Source of the DNA: a virus
Strand: one strand, 5' to 3'
IMG/VR virus record: IMGVR_UViG_3300021338_000003
Location: 62,001 to 126,000 of that record
DNA: 64,000 nucleotides
Below the pieces are notes generated by a model, which saw only the letters and a list, made by a program, of their open reading frames with translations, was not told the origin of the DNA and ran no database searches. Position 1 is the first letter of the stretch. Every line of letters begins with the position of its first letter. The position numbers and the translations under genes are program-made. Below, piece after piece: positions 25,815-59,764 of the stretch.

Positions 25815-25957
25815 TTGACCTTGAGTCTGAGGTCGTTCAGGGGTGGTTTGTAACATGGATAGACCTGTGCGGCATTTCTTTTGGTCTATTTGTGGCCCTA
25901 CCTTTGACTCTCTTCTTCTTGTGGGCTACTGATCCTGATAGAGGAGCCCAAAAGTGA
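25811..25957 (+). CDS. Single-pass membrane microprotein
   Basis: 48 residues, GTG 25811 overlapping the upstream stop (GTGA) and its own stop overlapping the next GTG start at 25954 (GTGA). The gene fills an otherwise empty 140-base gap. Residues 13-40 are a continuous hydrophobic stretch (Trp, Phe, Leu, Val, Ile, Ala) flanked by acidic residues, consistent with one membrane helix. Function unknown; small phage membrane proteins can act in lysis or superinfection control. Confidence 0.65.
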   Translation: MIDLESEVVQGWFVTWIDLCGISFGLFVALPLTLFFLWATDPDRGAQK

Positions 25958-26529
25958 GACTGATGGTGACCGGCCACCGGCCTGGAAGGGTCGGTCACCA
26001 CAATGAAGAGTGGGTCAGGTCTCGATTCAGGGTCATACTTCGTCGGGGCCTGAAGTTTTTTGGGCCTGACTTAAAGGCTGCATCAGGCATGGCCCTGGGA
26101 ACGGACCAGTGGTGGGCTGGTGAGGCCATTGAGTTAGGCATTCCAGTATGTGCTTACCTCCCACTGGAACCCAAGGGGTGGTCATCCTGGTGGTCGAAGT
26201 CCCAGGCCGCTCACTTTTTTGACCTCCTTGACGGGTGTTCGGAGGTCAAGCTTCTGCACGACGGTCATTGGACCTCGAATGCTGATAACATCCATTTCTT
26301 TAGACGCAATGTGACCATGTGCCAAGAATCGGATGACCAGGTGACGGTTTGGGATGGCCAACGGTCCGGTGGGACATGGCATGCTCTCAAATGGTGGCAT
26401 GAGAATATCAAAAGACGATACATCTGGGTGCATCCGGAAAAACGCTTCGTCCGATGGACGGAAACGATTCGGGCCGTGAAGAAGACGCCCCCTCTTCGCC
26501 CTGGCGTCCAATCCTTATTCGGTGATTGA
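25954..26529 (+). CDS. SLOG-fold (YpsA/DUF1273-like) protein
   Basis: 191 residues, GTG start. TGHRP at 6-10, SGMALGTDQWW near 44-54 and a late SGGTWHA segment match the YpsA/DUF1273 branch of the SLOG superfamily, Rossmann-like proteins that bind nucleotide-type ligands. Related proteins occur in phages and in nucleotide-signalling defence systems, but no reaction is proven for this branch. It ends an overlapping gene string just before a promoter, whose -35 lies in its last codons. Confidence 0.7.
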   Translation: MRLMVTGHRPGRVGHHNEEWVRSRFRVILRRGLKFFGPDLKAASGMALGTDQWWAGEAIELGIPVCAYLPLEPKGWSSWWSKSQAAHFFDLLDGCSEVKLLHDGHWTSNADNIHFFRRNVTMCQESDDQVTVWDGQRSGGTWHALKWWHENIKRRYIWVHPEKRFVRWTETIRAVKKTPPLRPGVQSLFGD

Positions 26530-29953: not shown

Positions 29954-29982
29954 ATCCGGTGTTCCAACCTGGAGACTCTCAA

Positions 29983-31131
29983 ATGCAGCACGGCAAGTTC
30001 AACATCTTCCTCGACAGCCAACACGGTAGCAGCGGGAAGGGTCTCATGACCCCTTTTCTGGCTGACCGGTATGAGTCCCGGTGTGTCAGCACTGCCAACT
30101 TCCCCAACGCCGGCCACGTCACCCGTCGTGCCGATGGGTCTGTGTTCATGGCCAAGGCCATTGCTACGGCAGCGTTCCTGAACCGGTATGGACAGACCGT
30201 GGACGCCTACATCTCCCCTGGTTCGGGGTTCTACCCCGAACGGTTCCTCTTCGAGTGGAACGAGTGCGGACGGCCCGATGTCTACATCCACGGCCGCGCT
30301 TCTGTGGTCACCGAAGACCATGCTGCTCGGGAGCGGGAAGGCAAGCAGTCCACCAAGCATATCGCGTCCACCATGCAGGGGTCTGGGGTTGCCATCTCCG
30401 ATAAGGTGATGCGGGGTCAGGGTATCCTTCTGGCTCGGAACATCGATTGGGAGCTTGAGGCCAAGAAGGTTGGCATCGATGGCGACCTTTCCTCTATCCA
30501 CGTTCTGTCTGCCCAGGACTTCCGAAACCGGGTATTTGAGGAAATCCCCAAGACTACGTGGCTTCACGAGGGTAGTCAGGGGTATGCCCTATCCATTGAC
30601 CACGGAAGCCACTACCCCCAGTGTACCTCGCGCAACTGTTCTGCCCAGGCAGCCATGGACTACATGGCCATCCCCCCGAAGATGGTCGGGGATGTCTACT
30701 TGAACGTTCGCACTTTTCCAATCCGGGTTGGCAACGTCAAGGATGACGATGGCAATGTCCTGGGATATTCTGGAGACTTCTACCCTGACCAGACCGAAAT
30801 CACCTGGGACAAAATTGCCGATGACGCCGGATTCCCCCCGGAGGCCAAGGCCGAGCTGTTCAAGAAGGAACATACCTCGGTCACCAAGCGCCTGCGCCGG
30901 GTCAGCACCCTATCCTATTCGGCGCTCCGCGACGCTGTCCGAGTCAATGGTTGCACGAAGCTTGCTTTGAACTTCGTGCACTACAACGACTACAAGGACC
31001 TTGGAGTGACCGAGTTCGCCAAGCTTTCCCAGAAGACTAGAGAGATGGTTGACCGCTTGGAAGATGAGACCGGCGTTCGAGTGGCTCTCATTGGTACCAG
31101 CGCCTTCCACGAGACGGTAATCCTACGGTAG
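29983..31131 (+). CDS. purZ: Adenylosuccinate synthetase family, PurZ-like
   Basis: 382 residues from ATG 29983 (GGAG 8 bases upstream). Landmarks of PurA are in order: the GTP loop QHGSSGKG (13-20), NAGH (42-45, catalytic His45), an IASTMQGSGVAISDKV segment matching the IMP loop, EGSQG (196-200) with IDHGSHYP, and C-terminal TSVTKRLRR. In PurA the first loop reads QWGDEGKG; here the catalytic Asp is Ser16. Asp-to-Ser is reported for PurZ, which ligates aspartate to dGMP on the way to 2-aminoadenine (Z) nucleotides in Z-DNA phages; it is also shorter than PurA (about 430). Host PurB would finish the step. No DatZ is seen here. The family is sure; PurZ activity is inferred. Confidence 0.8.
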   Translation: MQHGKFNIFLDSQHGSSGKGLMTPFLADRYESRCVSTANFPNAGHVTRRADGSVFMAKAIATAAFLNRYGQTVDAYISPGSGFYPERFLFEWNECGRPDVYIHGRASVVTEDHAAREREGKQSTKHIASTMQGSGVAISDKVMRGQGILLARNIDWELEAKKVGIDGDLSSIHVLSAQDFRNRVFEEIPKTTWLHEGSQGYALSIDHGSHYPQCTSRNCSAQAAMDYMAIPPKMVGDVYLNVRTFPIRVGNVKDDDGNVLGYSGDFYPDQTEITWDKIADDAGFPPEAKAELFKKEHTSVTKRLRRVSTLSYSALRDAVRVNGCTKLALNFVHYNDYKDLGVTEFAKLSQKTREMVDRLEDETGVRVALIGTSAFHETVILR

Positions 31132-56707: not shown

Positions 56708-59700
56708 ATGGACTCGTTGCCGAGAAAGCCCCGCAAGAAGTCGTGCCTGGGATGCCCTCTGAAAGGTCAAAGGAACTCCGAATGGTTGCTTCCTACGGTA
56801 TACACCCCTGACCCCGAGGGACACGTAGACATCCTCTTCGTCTTGGACTCACCTGACTATCAGGCCAATGAGACGAAGAGCCTGAAGAATCATAGTCATG
56901 TGGCTTTCATTAACAAGTGGCTTAAGAAGGGTCTATCCCGTCGGGGGAAGGTCAGAAAGCTAGGACGAGGCATTGCGTTTACCTCGGCGACCCGATGCAT
57001 CCCTTTGGATAAGAAGAAGTCCAAGAGAAAGCCCGAAAGTGAGGAGCTGAACCGATGCATTGACTACACCACTCGGGATATGGCGGAATTGGCCCCAAAG
57101 TTGACGGTTCTATTGGGGTCCTCGGCTATCCACTCGATGTTCCCTCATGCTGGTGGAGCCACTGCATCTGCCGGAACCGTTGAAGAAGACCCCCTAGGCA
57201 ACCTCATCTTCTTTGCTTATAGCCCTGCTTTCGTTGAACTTTCGAATGACCCCGAAGTTCTTCGGGAATGGAAGAAGCAAGTCATCCGGATTCTTGAGCT
57301 GGCCGGCTGGGTCAAGGATAAGCACGCCCCCAAGAGCCGCGGTGTTGTCATCGAAGTGGGCGACGATTTCGAGGTATCTGGGGACTACCCTACCTGTGCC
57401 GAAGAGGTCAAATCCATCTACATCGACGATGTAGAGAAGGTGTTCAAGCTGGCCAAGAAGATGCAAAGTCTGCCTAAGGGCGCGGTCATATGCTCTGATA
57501 CCGAGGCCAACAACCTCTTTCGGGCATTTGATAACAAAATGCTATCCGTTCAGTTCGGATGGGATGGAAAGTCGGGATATGTAGTCCCCTACCACCACCG
57601 GAAGAGTCCCTTCAATGCCGATGACAAGAAAGCCATCTATGACTGCATGCAAGACCTTTTCACGACCCGCACCAAGAACGGCGGGTTGTGGTGTTTTGCC
57701 AATGCAGCATATGATATGCATCAATTTCGACGGGAGTTTGAGTGTGAACTCCTCTCTATGGACAATGTAGACGTTTCCCAGGTTGCCCACCTGTTGGACG
57801 AGAACAGGCTCCAAGGGACCCGGGACCCTGAGTGCTACTACCAAGGAAAGCGAGGTCTGTCTCTAGCCGTCCTATCCGAAGTGTACCTCGGGGTTGTCCT
57901 CTCTTCTGAAGATAAGAGAGAGCGTGCGTCCATCCGCCGTTGGCCTATGAAGCGTTTCGTCCCCTACGCCGCTGGGGATGTTGTGTGGCCCTGGCAAATC
58001 CTCCAGAAACAGCTCCTACAAGCTGATGACCAGGATTACCGGCGGCCTCTGCTCCGCCTAATTCGATTTCTTCTGTCTCCCGCCAACCTCTTGGTGGTTG
58101 AGATGGAACAGAATGGATTTCCGGTCGATCTGGAGCACACTCGGAGAATTCGCGGTGCTGCTAGCCCCCTGATTGCCGAGAAAAAGCGCCTGATGGGCCT
58201 TCTATCCAAGACGCGGGGCGGGAAGAAGGCCAACAAAATTATCAATGGTCGGGCAGCCCGGGGTAATCACTATCTCTTCGGAGAGCCCCCATTCAGTCTC
58301 AAGCCATCCAAGGCCAACCACCGGGAGACATTGTTCCTCGACGTTCTGCGGTACAAGCCACTCACCTTCACCGAGCAGGGTGCACCCCAAATCAACTCCG
58401 AGTTCTACAAAGAATATGGAGTGTGGGATGATAATGATGAACCCCAGAATGAAGCGGCCATCATATCAGATTGGGTCGGGGTCGACAAGCTCCTGTCCTC
58501 GTTTGTCAAGAACTTCTACGCTTTGGTTGACCCCGACCGTGGGCATCCAGACATGGTGTGGGATTGCCGCGTCCGTCCGTCTATTCGTCTGGCTGCCACT
58601 ACATCGGGCCGCCCTGCTATCAAAAACCCAGCCATGCAGCAAATCCCTCGGGCCACCGATTCCTACCGGAAGGACGTCAAGGACATGTTTGTGTCCGAAG
58701 AGGGGAAGGTCCTCATCCTGGCAGACCTCAAGGCCAACGAGGTCCGATGGGGTGCCATCAATGCCCAGGCCAAGATTCTAGGAAACCTGTTTCAGGACGG
58801 TCTCAAGGCAGTCAAGAGATTCCGGAAGTTTGCCGATTCCCTGGAAGGCACGGACAAGAGGGCATATCAGGAGTGGCTGCGTCTCGCTGAGGTCAAGGAG
58901 TTGTCTGGCAAGCAGAAGCGGACCAAGATCAAGATCGAGAGACGGCCGAAGATGAAAAAGCTCTTGAAGCTTGCCGAAGAGGCGTCCCTTCGAGGAGACA
59001 TCCACAAGCAGACCGCCTCTACCTTCTATTCGGTGCCCCTCAAGGAAGTCAGTAAGGGGCTTCGTCAGGATACCAAGGCGGTCATTTTCGGTCATATCGC
59101 TGCTCGTGGACCCAAGGCCATTTCCGAGCAGATTGGAAAGAGCATTGACGAAACAAAGGCACTCCTCCGTGATTTTGACCGCAAGTTCCCGGGCCTTGCC
59201 AAACACCTCAATGATAATGCCCGTCTGGCCGAGTCCCGAGGGTATACCGAAGGACCTCAGGGTCGTCGACGTCGGTTCGCTCGGGCTGTTTGGTCAGACC
59301 CTGAAGAGTGGGTGCAGGCCAAGGCCCGGCGCCAGGCCCGGAACAACGGCATCCAGGGCTCGGCATCTGATGCCTGTCTGGTGGCCGGATTCCAGCTCTT
59401 GGACTACATCCGGAAGAATGACAAGAGCTGGAAGCTCCTGAATATGGTGCATGATGCCCTGTATATCGAAGTCCCTGTTTCCGAACTTCCGGCCGCCCTG
59501 GAGGCCGTCGAGCTATCTTTGACCGATTGGACCATGGAGTGGATGTCCGAGAAGTTTGGAATCAACTTCGTGGCTCCTCTTGAGGCTGATGTGGATGCTG
59601 GTCTATCCTGGGGAACATACGTGACCTGGAACGGCACCCAACCTCATATCGATGTGGTCATGGAGTGGGTCAAAGCCCAGCACACCAAGAAATGGGGTTG

Positions 59701-59764
59701 GGACGGTGTCGATGAATCCATGAGGCCCGATCGAAGTGGCGAGGTCCAGTCTGTCATGCTATAA
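56708..59764 (+). CDS. UDG-like domain fused to family A DNA polymerase
   Basis: 1018 residues. Residues 1-200 resemble family 4 uracil-DNA glycosylase, keeping four Cys for a 4Fe-4S cluster (13, 16, 97, 117) but lacking its catalytic motifs, as in phage SPO1 polymerase. The 3'-5' exonuclease has DTE (264-266), Asn332/Asp336 and Tyr420/Asp424. Polymerase motif A has Asp673 and Glu678; motif B has Arg786, Lys790 and Phe794, but Ala798 replaces the usual Tyr. Motif C reads HDA (915-917) instead of HDE. About 64 extra residues lie between A and B. It should replicate the phage genome with proofreading; there is no 5'-3' exonuclease domain. Confidence 0.92.
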   Translation: MDSLPRKPRKKSCLGCPLKGQRNSEWLLPTVYTPDPEGHVDILFVLDSPDYQANETKSLKNHSHVAFINKWLKKGLSRRGKVRKLGRGIAFTSATRCIPLDKKKSKRKPESEELNRCIDYTTRDMAELAPKLTVLLGSSAIHSMFPHAGGATASAGTVEEDPLGNLIFFAYSPAFVELSNDPEVLREWKKQVIRILELAGWVKDKHAPKSRGVVIEVGDDFEVSGDYPTCAEEVKSIYIDDVEKVFKLAKKMQSLPKGAVICSDTEANNLFRAFDNKMLSVQFGWDGKSGYVVPYHHRKSPFNADDKKAIYDCMQDLFTTRTKNGGLWCFANAAYDMHQFRREFECELLSMDNVDVSQVAHLLDENRLQGTRDPECYYQGKRGLSLAVLSEVYLGVVLSSEDKRERASIRRWPMKRFVPYAAGDVVWPWQILQKQLLQADDQDYRRPLLRLIRFLLSPANLLVVEMEQNGFPVDLEHTRRIRGAASPLIAEKKRLMGLLSKTRGGKKANKIINGRAARGNHYLFGEPPFSLKPSKANHRETLFLDVLRYKPLTFTEQGAPQINSEFYKEYGVWDDNDEPQNEAAIISDWVGVDKLLSSFVKNFYALVDPDRGHPDMVWDCRVRPSIRLAATTSGRPAIKNPAMQQIPRATDSYRKDVKDMFVSEEGKVLILADLKANEVRWGAINAQAKILGNLFQDGLKAVKRFRKFADSLEGTDKRAYQEWLRLAEVKELSGKQKRTKIKIERRPKMKKLLKLAEEASLRGDIHKQTASTFYSVPLKEVSKGLRQDTKAVIFGHIAARGPKAISEQIGKSIDETKALLRDFDRKFPGLAKHLNDNARLAESRGYTEGPQGRRRRFARAVWSDPEEWVQAKARRQARNNGIQGSASDACLVAGFQLLDYIRKNDKSWKLLNMVHDALYIEVPVSELPAALEAVELSLTDWTMEWMSEKFGINFVAPLEADVDAGLSWGTYVTWNGTQPHIDVVMEWVKAQHTKKWGWDGVDESMRPDRSGEVQSVML

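Follow-up and report, generated by a model that had tools for sequence, protein, structure and literature searches.

A PurZ-type enzyme encoded by a clade of large phage contigs

The purZ locus

The window analysed here is a 64,000-nt stretch, bases 62001-126000 of a 250,817-bp virus contig in IMG/VR (IMGVR_UViG_3300021338_000003, hereafter G000). Near its middle lies an intact open reading frame with an ATG start and a ribosome-binding site, coding for a protein of 382 amino acids that we call P0001. It carries the P-loop Q13-H-G-S-S-G-K-G20, the loop N42-A-G-H45 and the region starting at H195 (HEGSQG..IDHG, in full HEGSQGYALSIDHG). The observation made in the preliminary description, that these motifs are present and that the catalytic Asp of PurA (Asp13) is replaced by Ser (here Ser16), is confirmed. 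It is not due to chance, as 48 non-redundant relatives keep the same residues.

Besides purZ, the contig encodes a class II ribonucleotide reductase, gyrase/topoisomerase IV subunit A, a DnaB-type helicase, a Toprim primase, a clamp loader, a ligase, a 5'-3' exonuclease, a family A DNA polymerase and a dUTPase-family protein (Dut). The contig ends inside recA and is thus incomplete.

Table 1 Features of the window, of the rest of contig G000 and of related records. Positions without a prefix are those of the window; G and L numbers are our labels for contigs and for the sequence records inspected.
Position	Strand	Feature	Evidence
29971..29974	+	GGAG ribosome-binding site, 8 nt before the ATG	sequence
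29983..31131	+	purZ (jumbo-phage type), 382 aa, P0001	profile, fold and tree (see text)
30019..30042	+	P-loop QHGSSGKG with Ser16 in place of PurA Asp13	alignment
30106..30117	+	NAGH loop with catalytic His45	alignment
30565..30582	+	HEGSQG segment; Gln199 equals S-2L Gln190 of the base pocket	alignment
30874..30891	+	TSVTKR aspartate-binding loop; Thr298 equals S-2L Thr273, a PurZ-specific residue	alignment; PMC8342488
24121..24690	+	DUF1599 (nucleotide modification associated domain 1) protein, 189 aa; possible but weakly supported dNTP pyrophosphohydrolase	Pfam PF07659 8e-5, below cut-off; homologue in jumbo PurZ phage G029, 37% over the aligned part
25954-26529		Protein resembling a SLOG/nucleotide hydrolase by eye	no Pfam or PDB match
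56786..59764	+	Family A DNA polymerase with N-terminal UDG-like and 3'-5' exonuclease domains; candidate Z-DNA polymerase	Pfam DNA_pol_A 3e-44, exo1 1.5e-8, UDG 1.7e-8
G000:126013-126501		DUF7768 protein just past the window end, NDT-like by eye	no support from hhalign
G000:143375-143809		DutZ-like Dut	similarity (see text)
L007:17577-18266 (G000:156077-156766)		PP-loop ATPase, TilS-like by appearance	shared with both large relatives tested
L012:7912-8340 (G000:238912-239340)		Small HD protein, probably the HD_4 match	homologue in G029
L051 6572-6958; L177 4157-4546; L047 6703-7110		NDT-family genes (among others) 1-2.5 kb upstream of purZ in a second large-phage branch	
L045 9589-9879; G045:85546-85776		DUF6378 proteins just downstream of purZ in two lineages	
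L021 5998-7197 (LR756501, 735 kb)		Ordinary Asp-type PurA of a huge phage	QYGDEGKG motif

P0001 is a PurZ-type enzyme

The best PHROG match of P0001 is the phage aminoadenylosuccinate synthetase family (PHROG 1211, 6e-50). The best NCBIfam model is PurZ (NF038379, 2e-52), ahead of archaeal PurA (149 bits); however, its 178 bits stay below the curated 300-bit cut-off, so that the protein is not a member by that threshold. A profile of close relatives finds phiVC8 PurZ (3e-68) and S-2L PurZ (4e-57) ahead of Pyrococcus PurA (2e-53) and PurZ0 (1e-34). The AF2 model (pLDDT 93.9, pTM 0.92) has the phiVC8 and S-2L PurZ structures (6fm1 and 7odx) as its top folds, followed by archaeal PurA (5k7x, TM 0.79/0.89) and then PurZ0. 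We note that the TM-scores do not separate PurZ from archaeal PurA, and that the E-values do so only mildly.

Residues holding dGMP in S-2L PurZ (PMC8342488) are identical in P0001: Gly15, Ser16, Asn42, Ala43, Thr130, Arg144, Gln199, Thr215, Arg248, Val249, Thr298 and Arg305. They include the counterparts of S-2L Asn49, Ala50, Thr132, Arg146, Gln190, Val241, Thr273 and Arg280, all of them kept. Ser16, Asn42, His45, Thr130, Arg144, Gln199, Thr215, Arg248, Val249 (which blocks the ribose 2'-OH in S-2L), Thr298 and Arg305 are invariant across all 49 aligned rows of the clade described below, while Thr298 is Gly in all 12 PurA. P0001 departs from S-2L at Val46 (Thr), Ala128 (Gly; the change is common in relatives), Gln213 (Tyr), His333 (Gln/Asn) and Ser373 (Gly); of these, Val46, Gln213 and His333 are at ligand-contacting positions. 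In the region of ATP-type base recognition (S-2L Asn305, Phe306 and Gln308), Asn330 and Phe331 are kept but His333 stands where 44 of 49 clade rows have Gln or Asn, a mixed picture that does not settle base recognition in P0001 either way.

The preliminary description also singled out the second P-loop change, Glu to Ser, as notable; this point does not hold, as the change is not unusual. The position is Thr in 54 of 58 other phage PurZs and Ser, Cys or Thr in 47 of 49 rows of this clade, whereas Glu is the PurA, PurZ0 and cellular state. Moreover, Ser in place of Asp alone is not diagnostic. Bacteria and archaea (L111-L142, for example Mesorhizobium, Sphingomonas, Leifsonia, Geobacter and Lokiarchaeota) carry Ser- or Gly-type paralogues of 340-585 aa in genomes that also have a normal GDEGKG PurA; their function is unknown to us, and one of them (L112) has an N-terminal P-loop kinase-like extension.

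A separate PurZ clade in large phage contigs

Among GenBank phages the best hit of P0001 is PurZ of Bacillus phage vB_BpsS-140 (34.6% identity, 99% coverage), and listed PurZ records are 38-83 kb. A direct scan of viral contigs with P0001 alone found nothing, but a scan with an alignment returned close relatives at 38-56% identity. We count 61 contigs in this clade including G000, some of them fragments, all with Ser at the key position. Their median length is 123 kb, 19 exceed 200 kb and the largest reaches 436 kb, against a median of 26 kb and a single contig above 200 kb for the other PurZ contigs returned (Mann-Whitney p 3e-14; lists compiled by hand and not phylogenetically independent). 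One 286.7-kb contig (L216) has a PurZ of the canonical, not the jumbo, clade, and the 735-kb LR756501, considered as a possible PurZ phage, was rejected because it has an ordinary PurA.

In a 92-row IQ-TREE tree, P0001 lies in a 34-row clade of mostly large-phage PurZs with support 100/100. The clade is sister to canonical phage PurZ at only 88/88, the two being joined within a larger 100/98 clade; PurZ0 and PurA are outside (a larger tree was also built), and PurA is separated at 100/100. Placement in a bacterial PurA clade had been named in advance as the outcome that would overturn the PurZ reading, and it was not observed. The interpretation of the gene as PurZ-like is supported, with stronger backing from phylogeny, kept pocket residues, the ATP-type Asn/Gln region of the family and a DutZ-like gene in the same phage than from the Ser itself.

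Compared with PurZ (DgsS) of S-2L and Vibrio phage phiVC8, P0001 shares Ser for Asp13, the catalytic His, the base pocket, the Val against the 2'-OH, a TTVTK-type loop and the overall fold, yet the identity is 26-31% and the clade has Ser/Cys rather than Thr after the key Ser. The vB_BpsS-140 enzyme has a QVGSEGKG motif and branches outside both PurZ and the jumbo clade. P0001 does not group with PurZ0 and lacks its GSEAKG motif. With PurA it shares the fold and the catalytic His, but Asp13 is lost and the loop and pocket are of PurZ type.

The phage is otherwise far from these relatives: of 301 called proteins, only 12 match at E below 1e-5 in two of the nearest large relatives, and PurZ is by far the best conserved of them at 53-55% identity. 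This fits horizontal spread of purZ, strong constraint, or both. Three purZ genes of large phage contigs are interrupted by intein-like insertions of about 340-400 aa, two of them in the catalytic NAGH loop (L039 and L059) and one after YPFC (L061). In a 160.7-kb contig (L056), purZ lies directly downstream of the ribonucleotide reductase small subunit gene, with dCTP deaminase, RecA-like and helicase genes nearby.

Companion genes

Known PurZ phages have small genomes and adjacent mazZ/datZ. Here no canonical Z-cluster is seen: model searches of the incomplete 250.8-kb contig returned no match to DatZ, MazG, DUF550, DUF5664 or NDT (PF05014). The DUF1599 protein was considered as a MazZ substitute, but such genes are rare in the clade (2 of 34) and its AF2 model is uninformative (pLDDT 43), so that it is kept only as a weak candidate. 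The proteins at 25954-26529 and G000:126013-126501 were dropped for lack of support (Table 1). The polymerase is only distantly related to DpoZ.

The Dut, about 50 kb from purZ and outside the window, gives 143, 128, 113 and 103 bits with Dut proteins of four PurZ0 phages but 64 with Dut of Bacillus phage 140. Of 1306 GenBank phage records with a match, a listing at even steps down the ranking shows as its first seven entries Microbacterium, Arthrobacter and Gordonia phages at 44-52% identity (E 4e-37 to 5e-26), then a fall to about 35% and E 5e-14. The three of these inspected for context (ChewChew, AppleCider and Milani) have purZ0 about 0.9-1.4 kb from the Dut gene, as Theresita and Ghobes were already known to. 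The protein thus groups with PurZ0-phage Dut proteins rather than ordinary dUTPases; this rests on similarity, no tree having been built. DutZ enzymes turn dATP into dAMP and dGTP into dGMP in vitro (PMC12884076), an activity not assayed here for the G000 protein. The combination of a PurZ-type, not PurZ0, enzyme with a DutZ-like one differs from the pattern in that paper on Arthrobacter, Microbacterium and Gordonia phages (the PurZ0/DutZ/DmtZ system), where every PurZ0 genome has dutZ and PurZ phages mostly have DatZ.

Across 34 records searched, DatZ/YfbR-like HD proteins occur in 8, near the PolA gene in the seven that belong to the P0001 branch, and NDT-family (DmtZ-like) genes in 13, with no overlap (Fisher p 0.013, not corrected for kinship). 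The HD proteins of large members were not called true DatZ: their best PHROG is dATP triphosphohydrolase (1e-20), but the best single-sequence PDB match is YfbR (7e-9), with DatZ at 0.016. By our reading of the coordinates, nine of the 13 NDT genes lie within about 2.5 kb of purZ, and the aligned NDTs keep Tyr, DWTxHG and the GxHxExG Glu; they are not demonstrably orthologous to DmtZ (hhalign 28% probability). In a second large-phage branch (clade B), the NDT gene is followed by an unannotated conserved protein of about 224-233 aa. The gene between NDT and purZ resembled deoxyribose-phosphate aldolase by eye, an idea dropped as it has no Pfam or PHROG match. Clade B Dut proteins score like an ordinary Bacillus phage Dut and are not claimed as DutZ. 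In one record (G028), NDT and a Dut gene are about 200 bp apart, as in PurZ0 phages. The DUF6378 genes found in two records occupy the position that mazZ has in canonical Z-clusters.

A proposed route to dZTP

We propose that the gene encodes a functional PurZ condensing dGMP with aspartate, probably with ATP or dATP as energy donor, to N6-succino-2-amino-dAMP (dSMP). Host PurB and kinases, as known for S-2L-type phages, would turn it into dZTP, and the family A polymerase would put Z, the three-hydrogen-bond version of adenine, opposite T, giving a wholly or partly Z-substituted jumbo-phage genome. In this view the pools are probably steered by the DutZ-like dNTP pyrophosphohydrolase, which would remove dATP and supply dGMP in place of the DatZ/MazZ pair. 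Sequence and structure comparison establish the PurZ membership, the pocket residues, the large genome of the phage and the DutZ-like sequence; the substrate, the energy donor, the DutZ activity, the role of the polymerase and Z in virion DNA are inferred. No biochemical or base-composition data exist, and sequence, which reads Z as A, does not show whether the virion DNA is fully or partly Z, or not at all. The enzyme assignment is strong and we hold the proposed route as a whole to be likely, even though the Dut gene is not beside purZ, the polymerase is not close to DpoZ and P0001 has the three pocket departures.

An ordinary PurA picked up to boost AMP synthesis during infection appears very unlikely. 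The fold is shared with archaeal PurA and some huge phages do carry a normal PurA, but Asp13 is Ser in all 49 clade rows, the PurA Gly at the S-2L Thr273 position is Thr, the base-donor position is Asn/Gln in most of the clade rather than Asp, and the tree separates the two. It is also unlikely that P0001 is of the cellular Ser-type paralogue kind with another substrate, the phage then having no Z-DNA. Although Ser or Gly at this position occurs in those paralogues, they keep Glu after the Ser and Asp at the base-donor position and group outside the phage PurZ clade, except L111; besides, the same phage has a DutZ-like protein and clade relatives have DatZ-like or NDT genes.

A further possibility, which we likewise regard as improbable, is that the phage makes dZTP but Z replaces A only in part, for want of a strong dATP-removing set and a DpoZ-type polymerase. 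The lack of a DatZ match in the incomplete contig, the distant polymerase and the three pocket departures speak for it. However, the DutZ-like gene could supply dATP removal, and S-2L PurZ itself uses dATP and S-2L has no DpoZ, yet its DNA is fully Z (PMC8342488, PMC8065100).

Implications

We found no paper on PurZ in jumbo phages, although priority is not established because the search did not extend to the two 2021 Science papers on the pathway or to most subscription journals. Z-DNA phages described in the papers examined are small siphoviruses and podoviruses (PMC8599892, PMC12884076), and the clade suggests that Z-DNA is not confined to small phages. It is somewhat more likely than not that a whole set of jumbo phages, up to at least 436 kb, has Z-substituted DNA, using a third major PurZ branch and at least three different pool-control sets: DutZ-like (this phage), DatZ/YfbR-like HD hydrolase, or an NDT-family enzyme next to purZ that may salvage or transfer deoxyribose phosphate.

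The clade provides concrete new PurZ, DutZ-like and NDT enzymes to assay, and candidates for Z-tolerant large replisomes. A PurZ branch spread through large phages that otherwise share few genes would mean that Z-genomes an order of magnitude larger exist, and that the trait moves between lineages and is fitted each time with a different set of nucleotide-pool enzymes.
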